Source of the DNA: a candidate division WOR-3 bacterium
GTDB lineage: Bacteria > Hydrothermota > Hydrothermia > Hydrothermales > JAJRUZ01
Direction: 5' to 3'
NCBI GenBank assembly: GCA_039803925.1
Contig: JBDRZL010000020.1
Span: forward strand, 1 to 33,378
Length of the DNA stretch: 33,378 bases
In this document: positions 355 through 25,385 of the stretch, piece by piece
How the letters are laid out: every line of letters begins with the position of its first letter
How positions within the stretch are numbered: the first letter of the stretch is position 1
Program-made: the position numbers and the translations under genes
The notes under the pieces: model-generated
Databases searched by the model: none
The model's input: the letters and a program-made list of their open reading frames with translations, nothing else
Told to the model about the DNA's origin: nothing

Positions 355-627
355 TTAATGGCATTTGTTACAGTTTTTTTCCCACGGATGTCTAAATTCA
401 GTCCTTTCTTTTTTTGAATTTTTTTCTAAAATTAAAATTCTTGATTCAATGTTTTTTTTATATTCATCAAAATTTTTCTTGATAGAATCTATTTTAATTT
501 CTATTTTGCTTACTTTATTTTTTAAAAAATCTACTTCTTCTTTAACTTTTCTTAACTCCTTTTCATTTCCCTTACAGGCTGAAAAAATAATTAGAGTTAA
601 AATAATTTTTTTAAAAATTTTATTCAA
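355..627 (-). CDS. Small coiled-coil lipoprotein ending in a CxxCH haem motif (possibly truncated)
   Basis: About 90 residues. I prefer the TTG start at 627: it gives a compact lipoprotein signal (MNKIFKKIILTLIIFSAC, Cys18 as lipidation site) and its TTGAATAA overlaps the stop of the upstream GH57 gene. The in-frame ATG at 663 would add 12 residues and a 44-bp overlap. Residues about 20-75 are highly charged and heptad-like, suggesting a coiled coil. The last residues, HPWEKNCNKCH, contain CNKCH, a c-type haem attachment motif, placed exactly at the C-terminus. Monohaem cytochromes normally continue for tens of residues, so the gene may be truncated at the duplicated block starting 1 bp downstream. 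Alternatively it is a natural short protein with a terminal haem, His being the distal ligand. No function is assigned. Confidence 0.65.
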   Translation of the reverse strand: MNKIFKKIILTLIIFSACKGNEKELRKVKEEVDFLKNKVSKIEIKIDSIKKNFDEYKKNIESRILILEKNSKKERTEFRHPWEKNCNKCH

Positions 628-2914
628 TGGGCTTATCAAGAAAATCTGGATATTCTTTTCCAAGAATCCTGTAAATTTCCTTTAAAGTTTCCCTAAAAGA
701 AACATCAAAGAAATTTCCAGGAATTTCCTGATCCTTTCCATACCACCAGAACCAGTCCGAACCCTCTGCTATATATATCATTCTCATAACCTTTTCTTTT
801 TTTTCAGGATCAAGTTCATTCAAATATTTTTCAATATCTTTTCTAACATAAGAAAGGTATTCCCATGCCTTATTTTCTTCAGGTTCCCCTATCCATGTAG
901 AAAAATTGGCTCCTATCCAGGAACCAGGGAAAAGATAATTGAGATTATTTTTGGGTTTATATTTTTCAATATATTCACTGATTGTCATAGTTTTTATAAA
1001 TTTTGCCTCTGATAAAGATTTGTAAAGATTATGCAAAAACTCTTTTCCATCATGAGGGTAATGTTCCCATGCATTCTCACCATCAAGAATAACCGCTATA
1101 ACAGGAGGATTTTCTTTATCCTTCCAGTATTTATAAATATTTTCAAGTTCTAAGATAAATCTGTTAACTGCTTCCACAGGATCCATATTCTGATATACAA
1201 ATCCTATTGCATCAGATAAATGTGTATCTCTAAAAACTACATAAATACTATCCTTATTATTTTTAACCTTGTAAACTCTATATTTTTCTTCAAGACTCAG
1301 AAAGTTTTTATTCAAGGATTTCATTAAAACTTTCTCATCAGTTGCAATCCATTTTATTTCATTTGAAGAAAAAAGGGGAATAAGTTCATAGGCAACGGAA
1401 CCTTCACCAGGCCACATACCAGAAGGTTTTTCCCCAAAAATATTTTCATAAAATTTAACTGCCTCTTTTATATGCCATTCTGCATCTTCTGGATAGGAGA
1501 AATCTGTTTCTGGCATAGGAGTTCCTGGTAATCCCGGTATTGCAAGTTTTATATCGTAAATTAAGGGTAATATTGGGTGATAAAAGGGAGTTGTTGAAAC
1601 TTCTATTTGTCCCTTTTCCATTAATTTTTTATGAAGGGGAATTATAGAATTAACAATTTTTTTATGAATTTCTATTATTTTCTTTACATCTTCTTCAGAA
1701 AATTTTTTTCCTTTTTCTATTAAATCCCTAACACTTATTTTTTCACCATTTTCAAGTGTAACTTCCTTTTCTCTAAAATCAGGGTCAAGCCATGCTAAAT
1801 TAAAATAAGCCTTTAAATCTATTAAATCCTTATCAGAAAATTTTTCACCCCGCAGCTTTTTATCAAGTAATTCAGAATACCTTGGAAAAGTTCTTATAAT
1901 TTTTTCCCAGTTGGCATCAAAAAATCTTTCAACAATATAATTTTTCTCCTCTTCACTTGTTTCCTTAACGGGTTTTAAAGATAGTCTCATTGCTTTATCC
2001 ATTGTTCCCTGCATTAAATCTAAAATCATTTCAAGTAGTGATGGAGTTAAATTTATCGTCAGGTGAATGTTTGGGTAATTTTCAAGAATTTTAGCCATAT
2101 CATAATAATCCTTTGTTCCATGTAATCTTGCCCAAGGGGAAAGATAATCACCTTTTTCATCTTTTGGATACCTTGGCTGATGTTGATGCCACAAAATTAA
2201 AAGAATTAATGGAAAACCTCTATACTCAATTTCCCCTGAAATTAGTCTATCCTTGGGAACTTTTTCTATTTCTTCTGTTTTCATAATTATTTTTCTATCA
2301 GGAGTTAAAATAAAAACTGAATTAAAACCTCCAAAACCATCGGGAGTTTTGGCAGGGTTATTAGGGTCTTCTTTCCAATTTGTATCATCTATTACAAATT
2401 TATACTGGTATTTCCCAGGTGGTAGGGGAATTACTATTTCAAAAAATCCTTCTTCAGTTTTTCTCATAATACTCGAATTTTTATCCCAGTTATTAAATGT
2501 TCCAGCAAGTGAAACCTTTTTAGCAGAGGGATCAAAAAATTTGAATTTAACACCTTCTTCAATTACTTCAAGAGATGATAGAGCTTGTGTTTCTGTTATA
2601 ATTTTTCCATCAGGAGTTAAAATAAAGGCAGAATTAAAACCTCCAAAACCATCATCAATTTTCCATTTATTGTCAGGGTCTTCTTTCCATATATTCCCAT
2701 TTATTACAAATTTATATGCGTAAAAACCGGGTTTTAAAATTAGTTCTGTTTTAAAATTGCCTTCCTGTGTTCTTTCCATAGGATTTAAGTAGGGGTTCCA
2801 GTTATTGAAAGTCCCGGTAAGATTTATTCTTTCTGCTTCAGGAAAATAAACTTCAAAAATTACCTTATTATTTTGGTAAAATACAATTGAAAATATAAAT
2901 AGAATAATTTTCAT
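620..2914 (-). CDS. GH57 alpha-amylase/amylopullulanase with two N-terminal CBM48-like domains
   Basis: A 764-residue glycoside hydrolase family 57 enzyme expected to cut alpha-glucans (starch, glycogen, pullulan). Residues 1-14 form a short hydrophobic signal, so export is likely. Two tandem CBM48/AMPK-type glycogen-binding domains (about 17-108 and 121-212) share GTFNNW, YKFVI and DGFGGFNS. The GH57 domain follows: LWHQHQP at 241-247; GQIEVSTTPFYHPILPL around 435-451; GMWPGEG with the presumed nucleophile Glu504; LDGENAWEHYP with the presumed acid Asp611; and SWIGANFSTWIGEPEE near 665-680. This motif set resembles amylopullulanases rather than branching enzymes or glucanotransferases. The ATG lies 28 nt after the pseudouridine-synthase stop, with no clear Shine-Dalgarno. 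It probably works with the second GH57 protein at 9718-12792. Confidence 0.88.
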   Translation of the reverse strand: MKIILFIFSIVFYQNNKVIFEVYFPEAERINLTGTFNNWNPYLNPMERTQEGNFKTELILKPGFYAYKFVINGNIWKEDPDNKWKIDDGFGGFNSAFILTPDGKIITETQALSSLEVIEEGVKFKFFDPSAKKVSLAGTFNNWDKNSSIMRKTEEGFFEIVIPLPPGKYQYKFVIDDTNWKEDPNNPAKTPDGFGGFNSVFILTPDRKIIMKTEEIEKVPKDRLISGEIEYRGFPLILLILWHQHQPRYPKDEKGDYLSPWARLHGTKDYYDMAKILENYPNIHLTINLTPSLLEMILDLMQGTMDKAMRLSLKPVKETSEEEKNYIVERFFDANWEKIIRTFPRYSELLDKKLRGEKFSDKDLIDLKAYFNLAWLDPDFREKEVTLENGEKISVRDLIEKGKKFSEEDVKKIIEIHKKIVNSIIPLHKKLMEKGQIEVSTTPFYHPILPLIYDIKLAIPGLPGTPMPETDFSYPEDAEWHIKEAVKFYENIFGEKPSGMWPGEGSVAYELIPLFSSNEIKWIATDEKVLMKSLNKNFLSLEEKYRVYKVKNNKDSIYVVFRDTHLSDAIGFVYQNMDPVEAVNRFILELENIYKYWKDKENPPVIAVILDGENAWEHYPHDGKEFLHNLYKSLSEAKFIKTMTISEYIEKYKPKNNLNYLFPGSWIGANFSTWIGEPEENKAWEYLSYVRKDIEKYLNELDPEKKEKVMRMIYIAEGSDWFWWYGKDQEIPGNFFDVSFRETLKEIYRILGKEYPDFLDKPIE
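2279..2866 (-). repeat. Tandem duplication encoding two CBM48-like domains
   Basis: Two in-frame units 312 bp (104 codons) apart inside the GH57 gene. The best-preserved part is about 43 bp coding for NSxFILTPDxKII, for example 2298-2341 against 2610-2653. The remainder has diverged, so this is an old domain duplication still visible at the DNA level. Confidence 0.8.
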
Positions 2915-7909: not shown

Positions 7910-7945
7910 TTCCAAATTTTAAAAGGGACTTGAACCCAAATTAAA

Positions 7946-7981: not shown

Positions 7982-9721
7982 TTAAAACCTTATTTCAATT
8001 CCAATTTTTAAAAGAATTAAGTTCTCTAAATCCCTTTCAGCTAACAAGGATTTTCTTCCATACCTTAAATATGAATCACTTATAAGCTCCATATTTGCTC
8101 CCCTTTCTGTTAAATAAATCCTCCTTGCCCATTCATCCTCTTCAAGGGTAAAGGGGTCAAGTCCATATGATAAAAATACATAACTTCTCTCATAAATAAT
8201 TTTCCTTAATTCTAAATAGGGAGATAAAAAGGAATTTTTAATTCTTAAATGGGGTGCATCAAAGTTAATAAATCTAACATCACAAAAAATTTCATAATCT
8301 TTAAATATTTTCTGAATCCATTTAAAAATTATCTCAGAAGAATAAGGATAATAGCCAAAACCAGGTGAGGAGAATTTTCCAGTTATAAAAAAGGGTAATT
8401 TTTTTGTTTTAAATTCAACAACAAGTGATAAGAGTTCTTTAAAACCAAGAGAAAAGGTTTCAAAATACATAAGCTGATTTAAACGATGAAAATAAAAAAG
8501 ATTACTGAAAGGTTTCTCACTACCGACTATAAAATAATAATGTTTTAAAATTAAGTTGAAATTATTCTCTTTAAAGAAAAGACCTGAAAATAAAAGACCT
8601 TCCCTGTAATTACCAAAAAATTTTTTTAAATCAAAAACATCATACTCTGTAAAAATTCCTGTTTCAAAATTTGATATATATCTGATAGAACTGTAAAACC
8701 TTGAAAAATTACATATTTTTAAATAATGTTTGAAGTTTTCTCCATTAGATTTTTCATCTGCTTTCCAGAAGATTTCTCCTTTTCCTGAGGCAATGTTAAA
8801 CTCAAAATTTTTAATATTTTTTTTGATATCAGAGCTTATAAAGTTTTCTTCCTTGTAAGAGTTAAAAAGTAAAAGTTCACCGTTTGCTGAAAGGGAATCT
8901 GGTGATATGGTGCTATATTTTCTATCAAATCCTTTGTTTTTAAAGTAATTAATTGATAGAAAATTATAAAAGGTAAATCTATTAAAAATTAAATCTCTAC
9001 CTTCTCTCCAGCCATTGGAATAAAGAAAATTTAAATTTAAAATTTTAGATTTATAACTCAAAACAAAACCCTCCTCCTCTCTTCCAAAATCCTTATGAAA
9101 TTCTCCTATATTACCTGTTAAGTCAAAGGGTTCAAGAGAGGAAAGAATAAATTTGTTATAAAATCCTCTTAAGGATAAATTTTTTTCCCTTAAAATAAAT
9201 TCAGCCCTTTCAAAAAATACAGGTATTGAACCGTCACTCTGAAGATTTTTATTCTGGTATCTCAATCTTACCCATAAAAGAGAGTTATAAGGAAGATAAC
9301 CTTTTAAATCAAGTTTTGAGTCAGAAAGTGTTTTGAATTTTTTTAATGTATCTTCTAAATTCAGATGAAACCTTATATCACCTGAAAAATTAATAGCAGT
9401 ATTCCATCCAGTATTTGAAATTGTCTTAGGGATAATAACTTCTCCCTTATCTGTTATTTCAATTAAAGAATTTCCATAAGGACCAACTTTTAAAGGATTT
9501 TCAGGATCACTTATCCAGTTTCCATCAACAATAAATTTATATTCATATCTTCCTGGTTCAAGGTCGAGAGTAACTTCCCATATATCCCCCCTTTTTTCCA
9601 TTTTTAATGGATTTTTTTCCCAGTTTGTAAAATCTCCAGCGAGTAGAACAGAATTTGCTTTTCCTTCTTTTAATTTAAACTTAACAGGATATAAAAATAT
9701 TATTAAAAAAATTAATTTCAT
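7982..9721 (-). CDS. Predicted outer-membrane beta-barrel with N-terminal CBM48-like domain
   Basis: A 579-residue protein. After a very short hydrophobic start, residues about 12-95 form a CBM48/glycogen-binding-type domain (LLAGDFTNWEKN, GRYEYKFIVDGNW, DPENP, YGNS) like the two in the GH57 enzyme at 620-2914. The remainder (about 110-579) has alternating aromatic and hydrophobic residues and many Tyr and Phe, and ends in IEIRF. A terminal Phe is typical of Gram-negative outer-membrane barrels. I infer an alpha-glucan-binding porin or docking protein. It is the last gene of the six-gene operon, and its ATG overlaps the upstream GH57 stop by 4 bp. I know of no named family with this domain order. 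Confidence 0.72.
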   Translation of the reverse strand: MKLIFLIIFLYPVKFKLKEGKANSVLLAGDFTNWEKNPLKMEKRGDIWEVTLDLEPGRYEYKFIVDGNWISDPENPLKVGPYGNSLIEITDKGEVIIPKTISNTGWNTAINFSGDIRFHLNLEDTLKKFKTLSDSKLDLKGYLPYNSLLWVRLRYQNKNLQSDGSIPVFFERAEFILREKNLSLRGFYNKFILSSLEPFDLTGNIGEFHKDFGREEEGFVLSYKSKILNLNFLYSNGWREGRDLIFNRFTFYNFLSINYFKNKGFDRKYSTISPDSLSANGELLLFNSYKEENFISSDIKKNIKNFEFNIASGKGEIFWKADEKSNGENFKHYLKICNFSRFYSSIRYISNFETGIFTEYDVFDLKKFFGNYREGLLFSGLFFKENNFNLILKHYYFIVGSEKPFSNLFYFHRLNQLMYFETFSLGFKELLSLVVEFKTKKLPFFITGKFSSPGFGYYPYSSEIIFKWIQKIFKDYEIFCDVRFINFDAPHLRIKNSFLSPYLELRKIIYERSYVFLSYGLDPFTLEEDEWARRIYLTERGANMELISDSYLRYGRKSLLAERDLENLILLKIGIEIRF

Positions 9722-12700
9722 TTTATTTTAATAATTTTAAAGTTTAAAACTTTTTTATTTTCATCTTCAATTCTTATAAAAAATATGCCATTTCTTTTTA
9801 AAGGAAGGTATGTTTTACCCTTTAAAATTTTTCTTTCAAAAATTCTTCTTCCTGATAAATCATAAATTTTTAAATTGAATGTTTTGTTATAGGGATTTGT
9901 CAGGTAATCAGGATTAATTGTTTTTAATAAAAATGATATTTTTTTGTTTTTAATTTCCTCTTTTATCTTTAATTTTTTTAAAAGAACAAATTCCTCTGGT
10001 TCAATTCTTTTATTTAATATTCTTGGTCTTGGAACTTGCCACTCAAGACTCCCTCCATCATATGTTTTATATGTTCCAACAGCAAGGTATAAAGATTCAG
10101 GGTCAAATCCATATAAATTTCTTAAATAAATAATTCCTTCCAGAATTCCTGTATCAGAATTAGAAGAGAAAAATTTAAAATTAACTGTATCATTTATTAT
10201 GTTTTCAAGAGAATCAAAAAAGGAAACAAACTCGTTATCATTTTCATCAGCAAGGAAAAAGTTATAAAATGAAAGACTGTCAGTTTTATTCCAAGGTGAT
10301 TTTACAAGTTTTTTATAAGGGTTGAAACTTATGAAAATAAAATGGTCATTCGAAAATCTATCAGGAGAATTTCCAGCAGATTCTGTTGCTATGTAAAGTC
10401 TTCCTGAATCTTTATCATAAACTCCCCAAAGATGCATTTCAGGATTTTCAGCAATAAGGGGAACTCCTGGATCTAAAATTCCATCCATTAAAAAATTTAA
10501 TTTTCCTACAATAAAACTGTCGTTTTTCCCGAGCCAGGAAATATTTGAAAGAGAATCCCTTGAATAAATTGTATAAATAACTTTTGTTCCTGATGGATGA
10601 GGAGGTATCATTCCTTTATAAATATTTAAAGTATCAAGTTTCATTAAGGTTTTAAAAATTGAGTTCCAGTTATTATTTGTCCAGTAAAGAAAAACTGAAT
10701 CAACACCTGAAGGATCCTGAGCAGAAATTTTTACTTTAACTGAATCAGAATCAGTAATGTTGTAAAGAGGAATTCTTGAAAGGTTATAAAGAAGAGGACC
10801 TTCAAGGTCACCAGGTCCTGGAAAAGGTAAATCCGGCACTCCACTTCCAGCATAGAAATATATATCGAAGTTTCCTGAAATCCCTCCAATTTCCAGTTTT
10901 TCACCGGCAGGAACTTTTGAAATTAAGTTAAATTTAAGTCCTACTCCTGATTTCCATAAAATAAATGCTCCCTTGCCTGATTTTAAATTCCTAAATCCAG
11001 CATACATCCATCCATTTGGTGAGATATCATTTTCAAAATTTAAAGAGTAATAATTAAATATAATTTTATATAAATCAGGTGATAAGACAGATTTTGAAAA
11101 GATAATAAAAGGAGAATTGTAATTTAGTTTTATAAATTTTTGATTCTTTTTAAAAGAGTATGTTTTAATCATACCCTGATTTTCAAAGGTTATAAAAGCA
11201 GAAGCTGTATCTGAGTAAAATCCCATGATATTATATAAATCATTTTCATGCCATGCATCCTCACCAAAACCTGAATGACTGTAATCAGAAAAATCTCCTT
11301 CACCTCCCCAGTTTGTAAAGAAATTACCAATATAAACTGTCCCTGAAGAATCACATAAAAAAATTATTTTTCCGCCTCTTTTTTCAAAAACCGATAGGAA
11401 GTAATCGGTTCCAATGACGAATTCCATAAATCCATCACCATCAATATCAAGGGAATCGCGAAAAACAAATTTAGGTGATGTAAGCCAGTTTGAGGCATAA
11501 GAAAAAATATTTGCCTTACCTGTATGATTCCATAAATTTTTTCCCCAATAGATAAGTTCTCCACCTGGTCCAGTATGCCATGCTGTTTCATATAAAAGGG
11601 AATTTAAAGTGAGAAAACCAAGTAATTTTAATTTATTATCAGGAGAATTTTTTAAATTGTTCCAGGAAAAAAGCCATAGGTCCTCATAATCTCCGTTTAT
11701 TCCATTTAAATTTAAATCAGGTGCATTTGTACCAGTTCCATAAGCCTTTGTATTTTTAAAATCATAATACCAGTTATCATAATTTCCACCAGTCCAACTA
11801 TGTAATTCTTGATATGCTGAATAATTTATATAAATTGTTGGAGGATCATTGTAAGGATCAGAATCATAAATTCTATCAACACCCCACCATTTTGCAGCTT
11901 CGGCTACATGTATTGGCTGTATCCATGATGTATTTTTAGCCCATTGAATATTTGCATCATAGGAATTTGAAGGAGCACCAGGATAACCGAAATCCCAACC
12001 TGCAACACCTGCTGCTTTTTCCCAGTCATCTCCATAAACACAAATTTGCTCCTGATCCCAGGAATTGGCTAAATCCTGAAGATGATTATATAACCATGTC
12101 TCAGGAATATAATTCCATACCCAAAAATCCCTTGCATGTTTCTGAATGAATATTACAAATATTCTGTGATTATTTTCTATCATCTGATGAACCTTGTGAC
12201 TATTATAACATGGTGAGCCATCTGGGAAATTATGAGGATACCATTCATGAACATTGTCATCAACCAAAATGCAAGGGGGAATATGATTTCCATAAGAATC
12301 AGTTTTTCCATAAAGGGAATCAATAAGTGCAACAAGGGAGTAGGGCATTAAATTTTTACTCTTAAAAACCCTTTCAGGAATCCATATCACAGTAGGATGA
12401 AAGGGCCAACCTTCACCTTTTATTATAGAATCATCCTGAATTTTTTTTATTAAAAACCCGTATTCATTTATTTCCTTCGCTGCATAAGGTAAAATATTTT
12501 GACCATAAACACTTCCCACAATATCAACAAGGTGGCTTTTAAGTCTTTCTAAAAGTCCGTTATCATTTAAAAACCACGCATAGGAACTTGTTAAAGTCCC
12601 TGAAATATGAATATCAACTGGAACATTATAATAAAAATGAGTATCAAGTATTCTGTGGTATGAATTTCCATTATAACCTTCTCTTCCTGGTACCAGAGCA

Positions 12701-12792
12701 TATTTTCCATTATCACCAAAATGCTGATTTCCATGATGGAGGAAGGCAATTTTTGCAGTTCCACCGAATAAAAAAAGAATTATCAAAACCAT
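9718..12792 (-). CDS. Large secreted GH57-like glycosidase with C-terminal sorting domain
   Basis: A 1024-residue protein. After a short signal (MVLIILFLFGGTA), the N-terminal about 400 residues carry GH57 features: FLHHGNQHFGDNG (17-29) as motif 1, TVIWIPERVF (134-143) with presumed nucleophile Glu140, and VYGDDWEKAAG (252-262) with presumed catalytic Asp255 or Asp256. This pattern resembles 4-alpha-glucanotransferase or amylase-type GH57 more than pullulanase. The middle (about 400-940) is a series of beta-rich domains, including an Ig-like part (SAQDPSGVDSVFLYWT). The end (about 950-1024, NLKIYDLSGRRIF to GIFFIRIEDENKK) resembles a T9SS type-A sorting domain, so delivery to the cell surface is inferred. 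It overlaps both neighbouring genes of the operon. Confidence 0.8.
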   Translation of the reverse strand: MVLIILFLFGGTAKIAFLHHGNQHFGDNGKYALVPGREGYNGNSYHRILDTHFYYNVPVDIHISGTLTSSYAWFLNDNGLLERLKSHLVDIVGSVYGQNILPYAAKEINEYGFLIKKIQDDSIIKGEGWPFHPTVIWIPERVFKSKNLMPYSLVALIDSLYGKTDSYGNHIPPCILVDDNVHEWYPHNFPDGSPCYNSHKVHQMIENNHRIFVIFIQKHARDFWVWNYIPETWLYNHLQDLANSWDQEQICVYGDDWEKAAGVAGWDFGYPGAPSNSYDANIQWAKNTSWIQPIHVAEAAKWWGVDRIYDSDPYNDPPTIYINYSAYQELHSWTGGNYDNWYYDFKNTKAYGTGTNAPDLNLNGINGDYEDLWLFSWNNLKNSPDNKLKLLGFLTLNSLLYETAWHTGPGGELIYWGKNLWNHTGKANIFSYASNWLTSPKFVFRDSLDIDGDGFMEFVIGTDYFLSVFEKRGGKIIFLCDSSGTVYIGNFFTNWGGEGDFSDYSHSGFGEDAWHENDLYNIMGFYSDTASAFITFENQGMIKTYSFKKNQKFIKLNYNSPFIIFSKSVLSPDLYKIIFNYYSLNFENDISPNGWMYAGFRNLKSGKGAFILWKSGVGLKFNLISKVPAGEKLEIGGISGNFDIYFYAGSGVPDLPFPGPGDLEGPLLYNLSRIPLYNITDSDSVKVKISAQDPSGVDSVFLYWTNNNWNSIFKTLMKLDTLNIYKGMIPPHPSGTKVIYTIYSRDSLSNISWLGKNDSFIVGKLNFLMDGILDPGVPLIAENPEMHLWGVYDKDSGRLYIATESAGNSPDRFSNDHFIFISFNPYKKLVKSPWNKTDSLSFYNFFLADENDNEFVSFFDSLENIINDTVNFKFFSSNSDTGILEGIIYLRNLYGFDPESLYLAVGTYKTYDGGSLEWQVPRPRILNKRIEPEEFVLLKKLKIKEEIKNKKISFLLKTINPDYLTNPYNKTFNLKIYDLSGRRIFERKILKGKTYLPLKRNGIFFIRIEDENKKVLNFKIIKIK

Positions 12793-14111
12793 ATTTTTAC
12801 TTTTATTCTTATTATATCATATATCTTCTGATACTGGGAATCAGCAAAATCATTATCATTTATAAGGTCAAAATCTGTTACATATCCTTCACCATATTCA
12901 ACATAAAATTCCTTTCCTGATATTGTATAACCCATCTGTAAAAAGGCACTTTCCCAGGTAGCAAAATCCCTATTAGCAATAGCACCTCTGAAATAAAAAT
13001 AAAAATTAAGGGGAAGATTAATTTTTCCTTCAAGACCTATAAGATTTCTTTCCCCAATTGAATATGGATTATCTTTTATTCCTATGTCTTTCATTTTGTA
13101 TTGAATTTTTAAAAGGTAGTTTTTTTCCTCTTTTTTAATTTCAAAAAATATGTGTTTCCATTTTGCTCTTTTTTCACTTATAATTTCATAAAAACTTTTA
13201 AAGGAGTATCCATTTATAAATTCCACAAAAATTTCTGTTTGAGAAAAAGTATATTTAAAAGGTTTTTCGTAATATGTTCCAAATAAATATCTTGTTTTAT
13301 AGGAATCAAATCTTTCAGTTAATGTTATAGATTTGTAAGGAAAGAAAAAATTTATTTCTCCCCTAAATCCTTTTCTATCCCATTCTTTTCCCCAGTATGA
13401 AAATCTGTTTGAAAAATTTGTTCTGAAACTGTCATCAATATGGTAGTAAGATAATACAAATCTAAAAGGTCCTAAATAAATATTTGAAATTTCTGAAGAA
13501 AAGGCTTTTCCCTTTAAAATGTCAGAATATTCAAAAGTTAAAAATCCCTGTAATAAAGGAAACCTTATGAATCCTTCATAAATCTTTTCTTTTCTATTTT
13601 CATAATAATTCTTTTTATGCCCGTATAAAAGTTGAGTATCAAAAAATTTTTTGAATTTTAAAGAAAAAATGTTATAATCAGCATTTTCGGTTCTTTTTGA
13701 TTTTGAAAAAAGGTAATTGATTTCTGAAAAAGAAAAAGCTTTTAAATTTAATCGCATTCCCTCTGACTTTGCTCCAAAATCATCATCTCTTATTCTTTCA
13801 GGTGAAATAACAAATAAAAGGGGACTTTCAAAGAAGTGTCTATCTTCCCTTGCAAAAAATATTAAATTGAAAGGATTATAAACTTCTACATGTCCCTGTA
13901 AATAAAGGAGCTTACTTCCTTGGTAAGTATTTTCAAGCATATAAGAGGTATAGGTATTTAAAAATTCTCTTGAATAAAAATATTTAAGTTCAAAATGATT
14001 TCTATAAAAAGACATTTCCCAGTTTACAGGTTTTGATTCTCTTGAAATAGAACATTCATTTTCAAAATAAAAATTTAAAGAATAAAATGAAATAAAAAAT
14101 AAAAAAATCAT
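12783..14111 (-). CDS. Predicted outer-membrane beta-barrel protein
   Basis: A 442-residue protein with a short hydrophobic signal (MIFLFFISFYSLNFYFEN). Alternating aromatic and charged strands follow throughout and the protein ends in KIWF, a terminal Phe expected for barrel insertion by the BAM machinery. No named family is recognised. It lies between the sugar-binding components and the GH57 gene, overlapping the latter by 10 bp, so a role as a glucan porin or as an outer-membrane partner of the secreted enzyme is plausible but not shown. Confidence 0.68.
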   Translation of the reverse strand: MIFLFFISFYSLNFYFENECSISRESKPVNWEMSFYRNHFELKYFYSREFLNTYTSYMLENTYQGSKLLYLQGHVEVYNPFNLIFFAREDRHFFESPLLFVISPERIRDDDFGAKSEGMRLNLKAFSFSEINYLFSKSKRTENADYNIFSLKFKKFFDTQLLYGHKKNYYENRKEKIYEGFIRFPLLQGFLTFEYSDILKGKAFSSEISNIYLGPFRFVLSYYHIDDSFRTNFSNRFSYWGKEWDRKGFRGEINFFFPYKSITLTERFDSYKTRYLFGTYYEKPFKYTFSQTEIFVEFINGYSFKSFYEIISEKRAKWKHIFFEIKKEEKNYLLKIQYKMKDIGIKDNPYSIGERNLIGLEGKINLPLNFYFYFRGAIANRDFATWESAFLQMGYTISGKEFYVEYGEGYVTDFDLINDNDFADSQYQKIYDIIRIKVKIWF

Positions 14112-14818
14112 CTTTTAAATTCTAAGGATGTTCCTAAGGAAATTCCAAGATAAGAGTTATCCTCAAAGGAAAAGATAAAATTTTTGTCATCAAAAATAAG
14201 TCCAAAACCTAAATTTACAAAGTTTTCAGAAAAGGAAAGGAAAATAGCAATTGGTCTTAATAAAAGAGAAAGTCCAATTTTTTTAAATTCCTTTTCTCTT
14301 GAAACAAAAATATAAAATCTTTCAACTGGTGAATAATTAAGTGAAATATAATAATTTTTTGAATCAAAGGAATTTAAAATGTGTTTAAAACTAAGGGAAA
14401 AAATAAGATTTCTGAAAATAAATGAATTAGATAAGTCGAAATCAATTTTTTCTTTTCTTTTTAGAATTGAGTTAAGTAAAAGATAATTTCCTGATATTGA
14501 AAAACCTAAATTTTTAATTTTTTTAGAAAAACCTGTTAAAATTTCAGTTTCTGAATAATTTTTTAAACTCTTTTGAAATATGCTTAAAAATAAAAATCTT
14601 TTAAAGCTAAAAGAAGTATTAATTTCATTCCATTCAATTATTTCGTATGGTTTTCTATAATCTAAATAAAATAAAAAATTTTTATTAAAAAAGGGTAAGA
14701 GGGAGGGGTAAAGGGAAGAGGAGGAAAAAAAGTTTAAATCAGAAGAACCTGTTAATCTTGAAAAGGAGGAAGGTTTAAAATTGAATAGATTAATAAAAAT
14801 TAAAAAAAAGATTTTCAT
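14108..14818 (-). CDS. Predicted small outer-membrane beta-barrel protein
   Basis: A 236-residue protein rich in Phe, Ser and Leu, with a short signal (MKIFFLIFINLFNF) and alternating hydrophobic strands, for example FGLIFDDKNFIFSFEDNSYLGISLGTS cut into strands of about ten residues. It ends in LEFKR, not in an aromatic residue, so the barrel assignment is less certain than for its neighbours. The pattern faintly resembles PorV/PorQ-like barrels. It overlaps the genes on both sides by 4 bp (ATGA), so it belongs to the glucan operon. Confidence 0.6.
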   Translation of the reverse strand: MKIFFLIFINLFNFKPSSFSRLTGSSDLNFFSSSSLYPSLLPFFNKNFLFYLDYRKPYEIIEWNEINTSFSFKRFLFLSIFQKSLKNYSETEILTGFSKKIKNLGFSISGNYLLLNSILKRKEKIDFDLSNSFIFRNLIFSLSFKHILNSFDSKNYYISLNYSPVERFYIFVSREKEFKKIGLSLLLRPIAIFLSFSENFVNLGFGLIFDDKNFIFSFEDNSYLGISLGTSLEFKR

Positions 14819-15789
14819 TCTACTACCTTTATTACCTCTTTTTTTCTCAATTTTCCCTTCACTTCAAGTAAGAGAATATAGATACCGGGCTTATTAATAT
14901 TAAAACTTATTTCCCTTTTTTCGTTTTTAAGAAGTGTTCCTTCAAATATTTTCTTAAAAAGTTTTCCATCTTCTGTTATTAAGGATATGTTTATGTTTGA
15001 ATTTTCGGAAAGTGAAAAAGTCAAATTAACACTTTCATTTATAAAAGTAAGGTTTTTATCAATTTTAAATTCTTTTAATTCAAGTTTTTCAAAAGGAGAT
15101 TCTACGATTTCAGAGTTCTGAATAGGGAAAATATTTGAATCAGGTTTTTTATCAAGATTTTTATCCAGGTTTACTTTTAAAAATTTTCTTACATATTCAG
15201 GAGGTATACCATCCACATCAATGTTATCAGGTGATATATCACCAGAACCTGAATGGTCTCCTCCTGCTATGCATAAGAAAATTTTCAAATTTGAACCTGT
15301 ATTAAAGCCATTTTCAAAAATTAAGGAAAAGGGAATTTTTGCCTCAATATAGCTTTTTTCACCCGATTTCCCTCTATTATAAATTTCAGTATAACTTGAA
15401 AGGTCTGAGGTTGAACCAGAGGGGCTTATTTTACGGAATCCACCCTTTGATAAATCAGCATCCCAGAGAGCAAGTATGTAATTTGCTTCAATTCCATATA
15501 ATTTTAAATTTCTTGGATACCAGTTTAAAATATCAAGGTCAGAGACACCCTTTTGTCCTGTGTCAAAAATTATTAAAAGGGCATTGTTTTTTACAATATA
15601 CTCTGCACCAATATATAGATTATTTTTATCCCATGTTAGAAAAAAATCAGTAATTTCATTTTGAATTCCCCAGAAGCTGTCTCCATATCTATCAGAAAGA
15701 ACCTTTTCGTCCTCAGAAAAATCTTTTAAATCTCCATCAACTTTTATTGTTTTGTATGTAATGTTTATTAAAAAAATTAAAAAAATCAT
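14815..15789 (-). CDS. Secreted CBM9/DOMON-like binding protein
   Basis: A 324-residue protein. After a 10-15 residue hydrophobic start, residues about 14-210 look like a CBM9/DOMON-type beta-sandwich: KTIKVDGDLKDFSEDE, then DFFLTWDKNNLYIGAEY, then a SYIEAKIPFSLIF segment. Such modules bind sugars or haem in other proteins. The last 80 residues (FIDKNLTF onward, ending GIYILLLEVKGKLRKK) form an Ig-like or sorting-type domain. Its ATG overlaps the stop of the binding-lipoprotein gene, so it is expressed with it. Carbohydrate binding is inferred from family resemblance and operon context. Confidence 0.68.
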   Translation of the reverse strand: MIFLIFLINITYKTIKVDGDLKDFSEDEKVLSDRYGDSFWGIQNEITDFFLTWDKNNLYIGAEYIVKNNALLIIFDTGQKGVSDLDILNWYPRNLKLYGIEANYILALWDADLSKGGFRKISPSGSTSDLSSYTEIYNRGKSGEKSYIEAKIPFSLIFENGFNTGSNLKIFLCIAGGDHSGSGDISPDNIDVDGIPPEYVRKFLKVNLDKNLDKKPDSNIFPIQNSEIVESPFEKLELKEFKIDKNLTFINESVNLTFSLSENSNINISLITEDGKLFKKIFEGTLLKNEKREISFNINKPGIYILLLEVKGKLRKKEVIKVVE

Positions 15790-16991
15790 TTAATTACTTT
15801 TAAGATTCTCTCCTGTAAATTTTTTATTGTTTCTTCAATATCCCTTTCTCCTTTTAAAAAAAGAGAAACTTCCTGAATATATATTCTTTCTACTTCAGGG
15901 TATTCAGCAATCTGGGGTCTTGGTTTTGTTTTTTCAATTGCCTCTATTAGTATTTTCATAAATTTATTTTTTTCAAAATTAATGTAATCAATAGCTTTTT
16001 TATTTACTGGAATCTGCCCTAAGGTATTTGCCCATTTTGCCTGCACTTCAGATGATATTATGTATTTTAAAAATTTCATTGCTTTTTCACTATTTTTTGT
16101 ATTTTTAAATATCACCATCTGTGTTCCCCCAAGTGAAGTAAATGAGCCTGCTTCACCTTCTGGAATAAGAGAGATTCCAAAGGGGAATTTAATTTTTTGT
16201 AAATCTTTTATTTTCCATGGACCTGAAAAAATCATAGCATATTTTTCATTTATAAATCCCATATCAGGATTTATAGCACCTTCAAGAAATGCCCCACCTT
16301 CTATTTTGTATTTAAGATATAAATCTCTTTTAAAAACGAGAGCTTTTTTAAATTTTTCATCTAAAAATTGCGGATTTCCCTTTTCATCAAAAACTTCTGA
16401 GCCAAAGGTATAAAAGAAAGGTAAATCCCACCATAAAGTATTTCTCATTCCAAAACCAAAAATTTCTTTTTTTTCATCAGTTAATTTTTTTGCATAAATT
16501 AAAAATTCTTCCCAGTTAGAAGGAGGTTTTAAAGTATCAAGTCCTTTTTCTTTAAATAATTTTTTGTTATAGAAAAGTAATATGCATGTTACTTGGTCAG
16601 GGATTCCGTAAAGTTTACCCTCATAATAAGAAGATTTTAGGGGAGCTTCATAAATATCCTTTAAAATATCTTTAAAATAAGAGGTATCAAGGGGAAATAG
16701 AATTCCTTTTTTGGCAAGTAAATAGACCTGTGCTATATCAAGTCTTGCAATATCCGGATTCTGTCCACTTATAACTGATGTTAATATTTTTTCAAACATT
16801 CCTTCAAAGGGAACTCTCTGGACTAAAATTTTAATATTTTCTTTTTCTTCAAATTCTTTAACTATTTCATTGAAGACTTTAAATTCTTCATCGTTATAGG
16901 ATACCCATATTGATAATTCTTTTCTTTCAACCCTTTTACACATTAAAAAGAAAAATGTGAATAAAAAAATTAATGTTAAATTTTTTTTCAT
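15786..16991 (-). CDS. ABC sugar transporter substrate-binding lipoprotein (MalE-like)
   Basis: A 401-residue extracellular solute-binding protein of family 1. Residues 1-18 are a lipoprotein signal with Cys18 in FFLMC. The mature part shows the family features: IWVSYNDEEFKVFNEIVKEFEEKENI, SGQNPDIARLD, YGIPDQVTCILLFYNKKLFKEKGLD, and PFGISLIPEGEAG with GGTQMVIFKNTKNSEKAMKFLKYI. It delivers an oligosaccharide, probably a maltodextrin judging by the operon, to membrane permeases. The likely partners are the MalF/MalG-like proteins at 23704-25385 in a separate plus-strand operon. This is the first gene of the six-gene operon. Its ATG begins 6 nt after a TATAAT box, suggesting a leaderless mRNA. 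Confidence 0.9.
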   Translation of the reverse strand: MKKNLTLIFLFTFFFLMCKRVERKELSIWVSYNDEEFKVFNEIVKEFEEKENIKILVQRVPFEGMFEKILTSVISGQNPDIARLDIAQVYLLAKKGILFPLDTSYFKDILKDIYEAPLKSSYYEGKLYGIPDQVTCILLFYNKKLFKEKGLDTLKPPSNWEEFLIYAKKLTDEKKEIFGFGMRNTLWWDLPFFYTFGSEVFDEKGNPQFLDEKFKKALVFKRDLYLKYKIEGGAFLEGAINPDMGFINEKYAMIFSGPWKIKDLQKIKFPFGISLIPEGEAGSFTSLGGTQMVIFKNTKNSEKAMKFLKYIISSEVQAKWANTLGQIPVNKKAIDYINFEKNKFMKILIEAIEKTKPRPQIAEYPEVERIYIQEVSLFLKGERDIEETIKNLQERILKVIK

Positions 16992-17030: not shown

Positions 17031-18335
17031 ATGATTTCTGAAATTATAAAAAAAATTAAAAAAAGGGATTTAAAAATTGGTATAATAGGACTTGGTTATG
17101 TGGGACTCCCTCTTGCTGAACTTTTTTTAAAAAAAGGTTTTAAAGTTTTAGGATTTGATATATCTGAAGTAAAAATTAAAAATTTTAAAAAGGGTATATT
17201 CGGAATTGAGGATATAAATGAAGAATTTTTAAAGGAAAAAATTAATAGCAGTGAGTTTAATGTGAGTTATGATGAAAGAATAATAAAGGAAATGGATGCA
17301 ATTTTTATATGTGTTCCAACTCCTGTTACAAAGGAAAGGGTCCCTGATCTTTCTTTTGTTTTAAATGCAGCAAATTCTGTTAAGAGAAATATAAAAAAGG
17401 GAGATATTATAGTTCTTAAATCAACTACTTTTCCTGAAACCACTGAAAAAATTTTATTGCCTATTTTTGAAGAAGATAATTTTAAAGTAGGAAGGGATTT
17501 TTATTTAGGTTATGTTCCTGAAAGGGTAAATCCTGGTGATAAAGAATTTACAATTGATAAAATTCCTGTTGTAACAAGCGGTGTTACAAAAAATTGTTTA
17601 AAGGTTATAAATGAGATTTATAAGGAAATAGTCCCTATGGTATTTCCTGTTTCTTCACCAAAAGTTGCTGAGATGGCAAAAATTTATGAAAACATGTTCA
17701 GGAATGTTAATATAGCCCTTTCAAATCAGATGGCTATTTTATGTGACAGAATGGGGATTGATGTATGGGAGGTGATAGAAGCAGCAAAGACAAAGCCTTT
17801 TGGTTTTATGCCCTTTTATCCAGGTCCTGGTGTTGGTGGTCATTGTATTCCTGTTGACCCTTATTATTTATCCTTTAAAGCAAAGGAATATGATATGGAG
17901 ATTGATTTTATAACCCTTGCCGCAAAGGTTAATGATGATATGCCCTATTATGTAGTGGATAGAATTTTAAAAATTTTAAACAGGGAGAAAATACTTCCAT
18001 CAGAATCAAAGGTGCTTATCTTTGGTGTTGCTTTTAAAAGGGATATATCTGATGTAAGAAATTCGCCCGCTATAAAAATTATTTCTATTTTAAAGGATAT
18101 GGTAAAGAAAGTTGATTATATTGACCCTTATGTCCCTGAGATAAAAGAATTTAATAAAAAAAGTTTAAATTATAAAAAGAATATTTTAAAGAAATATGAT
18201 TTAGTAATTATTTTAACTAACCATTCTATTTTCCCTTATGAGGAGATACTTGAAAATTCAAAATTGATATTTGATACAAGAGGGGTCTATAGAATAAAAA
18301 ATAAGAAAATTTATAAACTTGGAGGAGGTAATTAG
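17031..18335 (+). CDS. UDP-N-acetylhexosamine / nucleotide-sugar 6-dehydrogenase
   Basis: A 434-residue member of the UDP-glucose/GDP-mannose dehydrogenase family. It oxidises C6 of a nucleotide sugar to a uronate with NAD+, for surface polysaccharide synthesis. The NAD-binding loop is GLGYVGLPLAE (20-30). Other motifs are VPTPVT (95-100), VLKSTTFPETTE (128-139), GYVPERVNPGD (160-170), AEMAKIYENMFRNVNIA (213-229) with Lys217, and GPGVGGHCIPVDPYYL (265-280) with catalytic Cys272. The GxGGHCIPVDPYYL form and the length favour the WbpA/TviB type (UDP-GlcNAc or UDP-ManNAc) over plain UDP-glucose dehydrogenase. The ATG is 6 nt after a TATAAT box. No glycosyltransferases are nearby. Confidence 0.92.
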   Translation: MISEIIKKIKKRDLKIGIIGLGYVGLPLAELFLKKGFKVLGFDISEVKIKNFKKGIFGIEDINEEFLKEKINSSEFNVSYDERIIKEMDAIFICVPTPVTKERVPDLSFVLNAANSVKRNIKKGDIIVLKSTTFPETTEKILLPIFEEDNFKVGRDFYLGYVPERVNPGDKEFTIDKIPVVTSGVTKNCLKVINEIYKEIVPMVFPVSSPKVAEMAKIYENMFRNVNIALSNQMAILCDRMGIDVWEVIEAAKTKPFGFMPFYPGPGVGGHCIPVDPYYLSFKAKEYDMEIDFITLAAKVNDDMPYYVVDRILKILNREKILPSESKVLIFGVAFKRDISDVRNSPAIKIISILKDMVKKVDYIDPYVPEIKEFNKKSLNYKKNILKKYDLVIILTNHSIFPYEEILENSKLIFDTRGVYRIKNKKIYKLGGGN

Positions 18336-18363
18336 GCTAATTAAAAAATGTGACTTAAATCAC

Positions 18364-18392
18364 TTGACAGATTCTACAAATAGATATATAAC
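18364..18392 (+). promoter_or_regulatory. Promoter of the full-length SBBP-repeat gene
   Basis: TTGACA (18364-18369), a 17-bp spacer and TATAAC (18387-18392) lie 40 bp before the ATG at 18433. This position shows that the gene starts at 18433, not at the upstream in-frame TTG at 18319 that overlaps the dehydrogenase gene. Confidence 0.65.
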
Positions 18393-18432
18393 AATAGCAA
18401 GGTTCAAATCCTTTAAAACTCTTAAAATAAAA

Positions 18433-21730: not shown

Positions 21731-23707
21731 ATGGGTCTAATAAAGTTTTTAATAATTTTTCATACTATAACTGTAGATGGAAATATAACAGACTGGATAG
21801 GAACTCCTCCGTTAAAAATTCATGATTATACATTTTCTAATGGTGAATTTATTTATAAGGGAGATTTAAATGATTATAGAACAGACCTTGGAAATACTTT
21901 ATATCTTGATTTAACAGAATTTAGATTAACATGTGATAATAACTGGATGTATTTTTTAATAAAATTTCAGGATATTGGACCATCAGATAAGGATTCAATA
22001 CATGTTGAAATTTCTCTTGGAAATCCTGCTGATCCAACATCCTATAACTGGATAGGAGATGATGCTCAACTTGGTCTTTCAAACAGGGCACTTGCAGATA
22101 GAATAATAGCTTTTCATTCTACCTCGGAAGGTAATTTTGATATTGAACTATGGGATGGTGGTATATGGTATTCACCACCTACTTCAGGATATCTTGCTGT
22201 TATTAGTGATGTTAATGATTGTATTGAGGCAAGAATTTCTTTAAATGATATTGCAGATGGCTCATTACATTTACCTTCTGCTATTAGAATAACTCTTGTT
22301 ACTTTTAAAAATGTTGTAGGATGGAATAATGATATTGATGCTACACAGGATATAGGTGGTTTTTTAATAAATGATGCAATTGATGTTATGGGAGGAAAAG
22401 TAAGTATAAATGAAAATGCCTGGTTTAGAGATTTAAATGATAATAAAGTAGATAAATTCTTTGATATACTTTTAAATAAAATTGGTAATGCAATAGAATT
22501 TACAAGGAAAATTGATGGAGACTTTTCAGATTGGATAGGTTCTTTACCTTCAAATATTCATGAAACAGTTATTTCAAAAAATGAGTGGATTTATAGAGGT
22601 GATACAAGTGATATGAGGCAAGATCCTGCAGGTGAGGATAGGTATTATGACTTAACTGAATTAAGATTAACTTGTGATTCTGTAAATCTTTATATACTTG
22701 CAAAATTTTATAAAATGATTTTTGAAGAAACTCAAATTGCTATTTCTCTTGATATTGATTCCAATTCCTATGATGATAAATTAATTCAAAATGGAGATGA
22801 CACAGGGACACTTTTAGGATCCAATGTTCAATATTCAGAAAGGGAAATTCTTTTAACTGCTGATTCAGTAAATCATTCAGAAATCTTTCTTTTTGCTGAT
22901 GATGGCTTTTTGTGGTATAACCCTGTATCACCTTATAAAATTGTAATAGACCCTTTTAATAAAACTCTTGAGGCAAGAATTGAGCTTGTTGATTTAAATT
23001 TAAATCCACAAAGCAGAATGATTATTTCAGCAGCCACTTATGATGCAAATGTTCAAGGTATTGGAAATTCACCAAACGGATCCGATGACCCAAATACTCC
23101 GATTGAAGAAGGTGATATGAGTGTAGATTATAATGTTTGTGATGCTATTGATGTAGTGGGGGGTAATGTAGGACAAAGGCAAAGTTCATGGGATAGAGAT
23201 TTATCTGATGGAGATATAGATTTTTATTATGTTATCAGAATACAAAATATAATTCAACCTTTGGGGACAGAAGATGAATTTTTATATGTTGAGAATTTAA
23301 AAGATGGAATTTTGATAAAATACAGTTTATCTACTGGTTCAGAGATTAAAATACTTAGAAAAGACAGAAATTCAGATTTTAAAGAAATTTTTAGAACCAA
23401 TATTAAAAGGGGAAGTTATTTTGATAGAAATGTAGTAAAAGGAGTTGAATATACTTATATATTGAAATCAGAAGAAAAGATTTTGGGGCCAATAAAGATT
23501 AAATATGAAGGGAGGATTGATAATGTAAAGGTTTATAATTTTAATTCTTTGTATCTAAGTTCATTAATAGAATTTAAAGTGATAGATTTAAGTGGAAGAG
23601 AAAGATTACTGAAAGGAAAGGGGATGGTAAGATTCCCAAATTTTAAAAAGGGTGTTTATTTTATAAGAGCAGATAATAGCACATATAAAATTTTAAAAAT
23701 AAAATGA
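21731..23707 (+). CDS. Secreted protein with two tandem DOMON/CBM9-like domains and a sorting-type C-terminus
   Basis: A 658-residue protein. A very short hydrophobic start (MGLIKFLIIFHT) precedes two homologous units (about 13-250 and 258-510). Each begins ITVDGNITDWIG or RKIDGDFSDWIG, continues FIYKGDLNDYR or WIYRGDTSDMR with YYDLTELRLTCD, and ends with DAIDVxGGxV, then W-RDL-D. They resemble beta-sandwich modules found at the C-terminus of secreted amylases and glucodextranases. Residues about 520-600 are Fn3-like. The end (about 605-658, FKVIDLSGRERLL to GVYFIRADNSTYK) resembles a sorting domain. It is the first gene of a three-gene operon with two sugar permeases (4-bp overlap), which supports surface glucan binding. 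Exact ligand unknown. Confidence 0.72.
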   Translation: MGLIKFLIIFHTITVDGNITDWIGTPPLKIHDYTFSNGEFIYKGDLNDYRTDLGNTLYLDLTEFRLTCDNNWMYFLIKFQDIGPSDKDSIHVEISLGNPADPTSYNWIGDDAQLGLSNRALADRIIAFHSTSEGNFDIELWDGGIWYSPPTSGYLAVISDVNDCIEARISLNDIADGSLHLPSAIRITLVTFKNVVGWNNDIDATQDIGGFLINDAIDVMGGKVSINENAWFRDLNDNKVDKFFDILLNKIGNAIEFTRKIDGDFSDWIGSLPSNIHETVISKNEWIYRGDTSDMRQDPAGEDRYYDLTELRLTCDSVNLYILAKFYKMIFEETQIAISLDIDSNSYDDKLIQNGDDTGTLLGSNVQYSEREILLTADSVNHSEIFLFADDGFLWYNPVSPYKIVIDPFNKTLEARIELVDLNLNPQSRMIISAATYDANVQGIGNSPNGSDDPNTPIEEGDMSVDYNVCDAIDVVGGNVGQRQSSWDRDLSDGDIDFYYVIRIQNIIQPLGTEDEFLYVENLKDGILIKYSLSTGSEIKILRKDRNSDFKEIFRTNIKRGSYFDRNVVKGVEYTYILKSEEKILGPIKIKYEGRIDNVKVYNFNSLYLSSLIEFKVIDLSGRERLLKGKGMVRFPNFKKGVYFIRADNSTYKILKIK

Positions 23708-24594
23708 AAAGATTTTTTCCTTTTATTTTCATAATCCCCTTTTTAATTGTTTTTACTCTTTTTCTTTTTTTACCTCTTTTTTTTTCTCTTTACATAAGTT
23801 TTTGTAAAATAGAAAACTATTATAACATTTTTGAATCTTTAAAATTTGTTGGATTGAACAATTTTTTAAAAATTTTAAAAGACCCTGAAATTATATGGTC
23901 AATTATTGCAAGTTTTATTTATGGAATTTTATATGTCCCACTTTTAGTTATTATTTCATTATTTCTTGCAAATCTTTTAAATAATCCTTTACTTAAACTT
24001 AAAAGATTTTTTAGAACAATTTACTTTTTTCCTTTTTTACTTGATACCTTTGTTGTTGGTATTGTTTTAACTTTGATTTTTGCTTTCCCTTATGGTTTTA
24101 TTTATAAAATTCTTTCCTATTTAAAACTTACAAGTTTTTTTAAAAAGGGATTTTTACAAGACCCTTATCTTGTTTTTTTAACTGTTTCAATTTCAATGGC
24201 TATAAAAAATTCAGGTTTTGGAATGCTTTTATTCCTTGCAGGAATGCAGTCAATACCAGAATCTATATATGAGGCTGCAAGAATTGATGGAGCAAATTCC
24301 ATTCAGATTTTTAAAAAAATTACCTTTCCCCTTATAAAGCCAATTGTTTATTTTGTGGCTTTTTTTGGATTTATAGGAGCTTTTTCTGCCTTTTCAGAGT
24401 TTTATTCAATGACAGGAGGTGGTCCGCAGATTAATATTTTAAATTACACTTTAAGTGAAACAAGTGTTTCAGGTTTAGTTCTTTATAGATTTGCTTCTCA
24501 ACTTAAGTTACCTGAAGCAGCCAGTTTTTCCTTTGTTCTTTTTATTCTCTTTTTAATTATATATTTTTCAACAAAAAAGTATAAGGAAGTATGA
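23704..24594 (+). CDS. ABC sugar transporter permease (MalF/UgpA type)
   Basis: A 296-residue inner-membrane permease of the MalF family with about six transmembrane segments (the first around 8-33). The EAA loop that docks the ATPase is EAARIDGANSIQIFKKITFPLIKP (190-213, read in two parts). Length and topology match CUT1 sugar importers. The ATG overlaps the stop of the secreted binding-protein gene, and the TGA overlaps the next permease start. It probably forms the channel with the protein encoded at 24591-25385 and receives sugar from the MalE-like lipoprotein at 15786-16991. Confidence 0.92.
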   Translation: MKRFFPFIFIIPFLIVFTLFLFLPLFFSLYISFCKIENYYNIFESLKFVGLNNFLKILKDPEIIWSIIASFIYGILYVPLLVIISLFLANLLNNPLLKLKRFFRTIYFFPFLLDTFVVGIVLTLIFAFPYGFIYKILSYLKLTSFFKKGFLQDPYLVFLTVSISMAIKNSGFGMLLFLAGMQSIPESIYEAARIDGANSIQIFKKITFPLIKPIVYFVAFFGFIGAFSAFSEFYSMTGGGPQINILNYTLSETSVSGLVLYRFASQLKLPEAASFSFVLFILFLIIYFSTKKYKEV

Positions 24595-25385
24595 GAAGAT
24601 ATATATTGCTTTTTCTTTTTTCAATTCTTTATATTTTTCCCTTTTATTATATGATTCTTGTTGCTTTAAGACCTGAGGTTCTTTCATTTTCTATGAACAT
24701 TTTACCTAAGAATTTAACCTTGGAAAATTTTGAAAGGATCTTCAAGTATCATTCTTTTGGGAGATATTTTTTAAACAGTTTAATTGTTTCTTTTTCAGGA
24801 GCCTTTTTTTCAACTCTTTTCGCCTTTTTGTGTGCTTATGCTTTTGCCAAGGAGGATTTTCCCTTAAAGAATTTTCTTTATAACATATTTGTTTCCACTC
24901 TTTTAGTTCCAGGTATTCTTTTTATGATTCCTCAATTTTTAATTGTTGTTTATTTAGGATGGCTAAATACCTTCTGGGGGCTTGTTGTTCCTCATCTTGC
25001 CAATGTTTTTGGTTTTATCTTTTTAACTGAATACATAAAAAAAATTCCCGATGATTTAATACATTCTGCTTTGATTGATGGTGCTTCAAAATTTTTGATT
25101 ATTTTTAAAATTATTTTCCCCCTTTCTTTACCTATGCTATTAACAATTTTCTTATTATCCTTTCAATTTCACTGGAATAATTTCCTGTGGCAACTTCTTG
25201 TAACGACAAAGAGTAGTATGTTTACAATTCCTGTCGGTCTTGCCAGCTTAAGTTCTATGTATCAGGAATATTATGGTGCAAAAATGTCAGGGGCAACTCT
25301 TTCAATATTACCGATTGTTATTTTATTTTTAATCTTTCAGAGATATTTTATTCAGGGTATAATAAGGGGAGGATTAAAATTTTAA
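24591..25385 (+). CDS. ABC sugar transporter permease (MalG/UgpE type)
   Basis: A 264-residue permease of the MalG family with about six transmembrane segments. The EAA-like loop is DDLIHSALIDGASKFLIIFK followed by IIFPLSLP (154-181). It carries the MalG-type end QRYFIQGIIRGGLKF. It overlaps the upstream permease gene by 4 bp. The expected ATPase (MalK/MsmX type) is not in the window and is probably shared from elsewhere. The gene ends 1 bp before the convergent HtrA-like gene. Confidence 0.92.
   Translation: MRRYILLFLFSILYIFPFYYMILVALRPEVLSFSMNILPKNLTLENFERIFKYHSFGRYFLNSLIVSFSGAFFSTLFAFLCAYAFAKEDFPLKNFLYNIFVSTLLVPGILFMIPQFLIVVYLGWLNTFWGLVVPHLANVFGFIFLTEYIKKIPDDLIHSALIDGASKFLIIFKIIFPLSLPMLLTIFLLSFQFHWNNFLWQLLVTTKSSMFTIPVGLASLSSMYQEYYGAKMSGATLSILPIVILFLIFQRYFIQGIIRGGLKF

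Follow-up and report, generated by a model that had tools for sequence, protein, structure and literature searches.

The Sus system of Bacteroides (SusRABCDEFG) unites, in clustered genes, a surface amylolytic enzyme, surface glucan binders, passage through the outer membrane and periplasmic processing. The MalEFGK-LamB system of Enterobacteria links a MalE-like binding protein and a MalF/MalG-type permease to an outer-membrane barrel that has no plug. Other outer-membrane proteins, the DUF5916-type CBM9-barrel fusions, carry a carbohydrate-binding module N-terminal to the barrel. Each of these features has a predicted counterpart in the gene set described here, which was found in a 1.84-Mb genome of the candidate phylum WOR-3. 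This phylum is widespread, mostly associated with heat and almost uncultured. For the only cultured WOR-3 strain, starch and maltose were among the tested substrates that gave no growth (PMC12285271), a result that would count against the uptake reading proposed below if this strain carries the gene set.

The window, i.e., the whole stretch of DNA that was analyzed, comprises 33,378 nucleotides. With a probability of roughly two in three, we consider that a gene block at positions 7982-16991 represents a conserved, T9SS-fed uptake system for alpha-glucans (starch or glycogen) that operates without SusD and with barrels other than those of Sus. No description of such a system was found in open-access papers, and the two large barrel families involved have apparently not been described before.

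A six-gene block conserved within one genus

The initial annotation of this DNA had proposed an alpha-glucan uptake operon of six overlapping genes. Open reading frames for all six were present on the minus strand, with adjacent genes sharing 4-10 bases (Table 1). From the first to the last gene, they encode a MalE-like substrate-binding protein (SBP), DOMON324, a 236-aa protein, a 442-aa predicted barrel, a GH57-like enzyme of 1024 aa and a 579-aa fusion of a CBM48 domain to a predicted barrel. The two further genomes that represent the genus (L038, L039) showed an identical gene order. Since the block was kept across three genomes with protein identities down to 55-76%, it is not an accident of assembly. 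Full synteny of the six genes was confined to this genus. A scan for promoters and terminators returned sites that were no more numerous than in shuffled sequences.

The annotated sugar-binding lipoprotein, CBM9/DOMON-like protein, 442-aa barrel, secreted GH57 enzyme with sorting domain and CBM48-bearing barrel all agreed with the analyses presented below. The annotated gene set was nevertheless incomplete, as it missed an inner-membrane permease (23704-25385) and a second secreted GH57 protein (620-2914) in the same window.

Directly downstream of the block, and conserved in the genus, lies a gene for a 382-aa multi-span membrane protein without a family match (6767-7915, minus strand). Signal peptides of secreted proteins of this lineage, as seen across 7982-16991, are unusually short, with about 8-12 hydrophobic residues followed directly by the mature domain.

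Table 1. Genes and domains assigned to the proposed system in the analyzed window.
Feature	Position	Strand	Basis of assignment
Second secreted GH57, 764 aa, two N-terminal CBM48, no sorting tail	620..2914	-	PF03065 E 6e-66; PF16561/PF02922, two copies
CBM48-barrel fusion, 579 aa (barrel predicted)	7982..9721	-	AlphaFold, Foldseek, C-terminal Phe
CBM48 domain, fusion residues 12-85	9467..9688	-	PF16561 E 2e-16
Secreted divergent GH57 enzyme (putative), 1024 aa	9718..12792	-	hhalign to GH57 4-alpha-glucanotransferase profile
T9SS type-A sorting domain, enzyme residues ~965-1022	9727..9900	-	TIGR04183
CBM21-like glycogen/starch-binding domain, enzyme residues ~682-762	10507..10749	-	profile match
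GH57-like catalytic region, enzyme residues ~14-435; predicted nucleophile E140, predicted acid D255/D256	11488..12753	-	alignments
442-aa outer-membrane beta-barrel (predicted)	12783..14111	-	AlphaFold model, Foldseek, C-terminal Phe
236-aa secreted protein, possible small barrel	14108..14818	-	similar-sized genes after DOMON324 in families f3 and f29
DOMON324, DOMON/CBM9-type protein, 324 aa, weak T9SS type-A tail at residues ~254-321	14815..15789	-	
MalE-like substrate-binding lipoprotein, 401 aa, first gene of block	15786..16991	-	PF01547/PF13416
DOMON658, DOMON-like secreted protein, weak T9SS tail, overlaps MalF-like gene	21731..23707	+	profile homology
MalF/UgpA-type ABC permease	23704..24594	+	PF00528
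MalG/UgpE-type ABC permease	24591..25385	+	PF00528 E 3e-19

Substrate-binding proteins and inner-membrane permease

The SBP, in which a Cys follows the signal peptide, was identified as a family-1 substrate-binding protein (PF01547, E 6e-43). It scored 86 bits against the NCBIfam MalE model, which is under the equivalog cut-off of that model, and its closest solved relatives included GacH and other maltose-binding proteins. Orthologues in other families showed 43-48% identity, and a lipobox-like Cys was present in nearly all of them.

DOMON324 itself had no Pfam match. By profile comparison, it proved homologous to further WOR-3 proteins of the DOMON/CBM9 type, namely a DOMON lipoprotein (E 2e-37), DOMON proteins linked to MalF (E 4e-10) and DOMON658 (E 5e-6). 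TIGR04183 was matched at E<=0.01 by 11 of 16 DOMON324 orthologues, with the protein from the window lying under the cut-off; because DOMON324 carries this weak T9SS tail, it is probably located on the cell surface. In the other families that were read, too, its gene and that of the SBP are neighbors.

Further along the window, on the opposite strand, a MalF-MalG-like pair was found that is likely to be the permease of the SBP. MalF orthologues with 39-45% identity occurred in most system-positive genomes; in the system-negative genome G001, only a match with an E-value of 3e-8 was found. MalG adjoins MalF in relatives, and a single further permease pair of this kind is present in the genome of the window. 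Together, the family-1 SBP and the two BPD permeases have the composition of a MalE-MalF-MalG importer, with all three remaining below the MalE/MalF/MalG equivalog cut-offs. In several families a DOMON gene directly precedes MalF, and some of these genes encode PF09985 (Glucodextran_C), the binding module of glucodextranase. DOMON658, which holds this position in the window, showed profile homology (E 4e-11) to the PF09985-bearing proteins encoded ahead of MalF in other families and scored 15 bits against TIGR04183, under the cut-off.

A divergent, secreted GH57-like enzyme

Sequence searches of the 1024-aa enzyme against Pfam and PDB yielded no GH57 match above cut-off; the best score with Pfam GH57 was 18.3 vs. 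21.2 bits, and 1 of 17 homologues reached an E-value of 0.0016. Profile-profile alignment was more informative: with hhalign, the catalytic part matched a GH57 4-alpha-glucanotransferase profile over 359 columns (probability 94.6%, E 7e-8) with a score of 70.8; none of 20 column-shuffled controls scored above 32. This profile consisted of the 4-alpha-glucanotransferases of the phylum and the Thermococcus litoralis enzyme, whose identity as 1k1w was confirmed by search. Against a profile of three sequences built on the other GH57 gene of the window (620-2914), hhalign gave no match. Seven residues (H20, Q23, E140, D255, D256, W405, and H406) were invariant in the 17 enzyme sequences, and E140 and D255/D256 aligned with the ERV and DDGEK motifs of 1k1w. 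The enzyme profile also matched the CBM21 domains of the PP1 regulatory subunits 3C/3A (E 3e-4 to 1e-3), and 5 of the 17 members had a CBM_21 match (best 1.2e-5). Based on the profile match, the invariant catalytic Glu and Asp residues and the CBM21-like domain, the protein thus appears to be a divergent secreted GH57 enzyme directed at alpha-glucan, either as a hydrolase or as a transferase.

At its C-terminus, the enzyme scored 25.1 bits against TIGR04183 (NCBIfam cut-off 23), and a Por_Secre_tail match at E<=0.05 was found in 13 of 17 homologues. With this sorting domain, and with the SprA translocon encoded in the genome, the enzyme is a predicted T9SS type-A cargo. The second GH57 protein has a short signal peptide, as read from its sequence, and is probably periplasmic; its gene is found at this position in L038 and L039 as well.

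T9SS tails also occur on other proteins in the window. An 864-aa secreted protein (18319-20913, plus strand) combines DUF7948 and six SBBP beta-propeller repeats with such a tail, and its gene adjoins a gene of the UDP-glucose/GDP-mannose dehydrogenase family (17031-18335). A 1275-aa secreted protein (28645-32472, minus strand) has MAM-like, CARDB and T9SS sorting domains, and the product of the neighboring gene (27335-28648) ends in a weak T9SS tail as well.

Two predicted outer-membrane barrel families

For both the 442-aa and the 579-aa protein, AlphaFold models and a C-terminal aromatic beta-signal pointed to outer-membrane beta-barrels, in agreement with the annotated barrels. The model of the 442-aa protein was all-beta with ~24 strands (pLDDT 77.6, pTM 0.72), and its top Foldseek matches were the outer-membrane barrels FimD/PapC, BtuB and AlgE. 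That of the 579-aa protein had ~22 barrel strands (pLDDT 75.6, pTM 0.63), with porins, AlgE and LptD as Foldseek matches of its barrel. Strand counts are DSSP readings of predicted models, which were of moderate confidence and built from shallow alignments of 17-21 sequences; superposition of the Foldseek matches on both barrels was poor, with an rmsd of about 10 Å or more. A C-terminal Phe was invariant among the 21 homologues of the 442-aa barrel and in the 17 sequences of the 579-aa family.

Homologues of the 442-aa barrel outside the genus showed 30-35% identity. None of the 21 homologues matched a Pfam family, and LamB was matched neither by these homologues nor by the CBM48 barrel. A single scan across species genomes returned the 442-aa family from WOR-3 and its relatives only. 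Its members have a conserved segment of 30 residues between strands 5 and 6. When compared with the barrel part of the CBM48 fusion, the 442-aa barrel showed no detectable homology.

The 579-aa protein was recognized in Pfam only by its CBM48 domain, and its homologues were searched for within the phylum. By Foldseek, this CBM48/AMPK-CBM domain superposed on the glycogen-binding domain of AMPK beta1 (1z0m) with a TM score of 0.86 over the target, 33% identity and 1.7 Å. W34, K62 and N84 were invariant in 17 of 17 sequences and position 69 was occupied by W or Y; in AMPK beta1, the corresponding positions are those that contact glucan. In fold as well as in presumed contact residues, the domain conforms to CBM48.

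In most genomes, the gene for the CBM48 barrel adjoins a gene pair for a CBM48 lipoprotein and, after it, a lipoprotein of DOMON or similar type (e.g., L122:10393-12462). In the genome of the window this pair is located on contig 25 (L138:9218-10968).

Distribution of the gene set across WOR-3

Among 147 WOR-3 genomes, the enzyme was found in 18, the 442-aa barrel in 21 and the CBM48 barrel in 20. All 18 genomes with the enzyme were among the 21 with the 442-aa barrel, and the remaining three are 75-85% complete. Of 37 families, 7 had all three genes, and in the other 30 no convincing copy of any of them was found. Their co-occurrence had a hypergeometric probability of 2e-20 by genome and 1e-7 by family, neither of which is corrected for shared ancestry. 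G001, a close relative from the same family that is 96% complete, had none of the three.

Genes for the 442-aa barrel and the CBM48 barrel were adjacent in 17 genomes, those of the genus included, and the SBP-DOMON324 pair occurred in families f3, f9, f10, f11, f28 and f29. Family f29, which belongs to a different class, has the order SBP, DOMON, 219-aa protein, barrel and CBM48 barrel, i.e., the order of the block minus the enzyme. The arrangement in f9 and f10, where the barrel pair is followed by the CBM48 lipoprotein and the DOMON lipoprotein, is the usual one outside the genus. There, the set is distributed over three or four places: SBP-DOMON, barrel-CBM48 barrel-lipoproteins, a solitary GH57 gene, and DOMON-MalF-MalG. 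The enzyme gene then stands alone among housekeeping genes (CDP-alcohol transferase, CTP synthase, diacylglycerol kinase). In f9 (L040:13384-14603) and f10 (L051:12904-14149) it is followed by genes for a CDP-alcohol phosphatidyltransferase and a HAD hydrolase, a conserved neighborhood without an obvious link to glucan.

These patterns qualify the annotated operon. Synthesis from one transcript, as annotated, is consistent with the clustering in this genus only, the parts being split over several loci in other families. Barrel and GH57 genes proved to be neighbors in the genus only; elsewhere, the 442-aa barrel is paired with the CBM48 barrel and the lipoproteins. Because of the perfect co-occurrence at family level, and because five of the six positions are in order in another class, interpretation of the block genes as one functional unit is supported.

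Alternative roles for the block genes

The 236-aa protein, which the initial annotation had listed as a barrel, can be regarded as no more than a possible one. It matched no family in Pfam or NCBIfam, including PorV/PorQ, and no sequence relatives were detected outside the genus. Genes of similar size come after DOMON324 in f3 and f29, with no detectable sequence homology between their products and the 236-aa protein. An amphipathic-strand statistic calculated for the 236-aa protein was dropped, as it failed to tell predicted barrels and controls apart.

The positional counterpart in f3 gave a weak PorV/PorQ match (24.8 bits vs. a cut-off of 90). Together with the T9SS tails on the enzyme and the DOMON proteins, this match would fit a role of the barrels as PorV/PorQ-like accessories of T9SS or cell-surface assembly, which display the GH57 enzyme and the DOMON proteins while sugars enter via a general porin. 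However, SprA was found in 137 of the 147 genomes, that of the window included, vs. about 21 for the barrels, which argues that the barrels are not general T9SS parts. In addition, one of the two large barrels bears a glucan-binding CBM48 domain in which the contact residues are kept. We therefore consider a role in assembly unlikely.

An origin of the glucan in the cell itself, with the barrels and CBM proteins exporting a glycogen-like capsule or coating the cell with it and the GH57 enzyme remodeling it, seems very unlikely. In line with this explanation, AlgE, an alginate exporter, ranks among the best Foldseek matches of both barrels, and the enzyme is related to 4-alpha-glucanotransferase rather than to a pure hydrolase. 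The set, however, includes an SBP lipoprotein and an importer-type permease, and the block contains neither a polymerase nor an export ATPase. Finally, a chance neighborhood of independently acting secreted proteins with roles of their own, for which the restriction of the full order to one genus and the scattering of its parts elsewhere could be cited, is highly improbable in view of the perfect family-level co-distribution and the repeated pairing of the same parts.

Discussion

An alpha-glucan theme of the block is supported by the co-occurrence of a CBM48, a CBM21-like domain, a GH57-like enzyme and a MalE-like SBP. Substrate and direction of transport in the proposed uptake system are inferred from the families present, and the identity of the conducting barrel and the cellular locations are inferences as well. 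In this system, the GH57-like enzyme would be exported via T9SS, bind glucan through its CBM21-like domain and cut or transfer alpha-1,4 chains. Glucan would be held by the DOMON proteins and, from other contigs, by CBM48 and DOMON lipoproteins. Maltodextrins would diffuse through the outer membrane via the 442-aa barrel, the CBM48 barrel or both. The N-terminal CBM48 of the latter, which is probably periplasmic, could then catch the chain, a second, periplasmic GH57 with two CBM48 domains would trim it, and the MalE-like lipoprotein would pass oligosaccharides to the MalF-MalG-type permease.

In a more far-reaching version, the 442-aa and CBM48 barrels would together form a TonB-independent importer of large alpha-glucan chains, with the 30-residue segment forming an internal gate and the CBM48 working like a ratchet. 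Such a two-barrel importer would represent a new class of glycan import machine, and we regard its existence as quite unlikely. For WOR-3, the co-inherited set provides a testable substrate, alpha-glucan, as well as two predicted outer-membrane barrel families.

Differences from the Sus system start at the outer membrane, as the initial annotation had anticipated. SusD (PF07980) was absent from all 21 positive genomes and detected in the Bacteroides control; no block protein matched a TonB plug, for which four Plug matches were found elsewhere in the genome; and the barrels are unrelated to SusC by sequence. The predicted surface enzyme is a GH57 protein with a T9SS tail instead of a GH13 lipoprotein, and the inner-membrane step would be carried out by an MBP-type ABC importer. 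The CBM48 lipoprotein and the DOMON-type lipoprotein, in turn, resemble SusE/SusF in role.

With respect to MalEFGK-LamB, the WOR-3 barrels differ by absence of similarity to LamB, by about 22-24 predicted strands vs. 18, and, in one of them, by the presence of a CBM48. The WOR-3 binding protein is a predicted lipoprotein encoded beside a DOMON gene, and the surface enzyme is predicted to be exported by T9SS. The fusion differs from DUF5916-type proteins in that its module is a CBM48, and it had no DUF5916 match in Pfam. The enzyme shares its catalytic motifs, and a fold profile over 359 columns, with the 4-alpha-glucanotransferase 1k1w; unlike that protein, it is a predicted secreted protein of 1024 aa with CBM21-like and T9SS domains and lies under the Pfam GH57 cut-off. 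If the interpretation as an uptake system is correct, these genes would encode a third route, besides SusCD and LamB-type porins, by which cleavage of starch at the cell surface is coupled to import across the outer membrane, and would tie T9SS to an MBP-type ABC importer.
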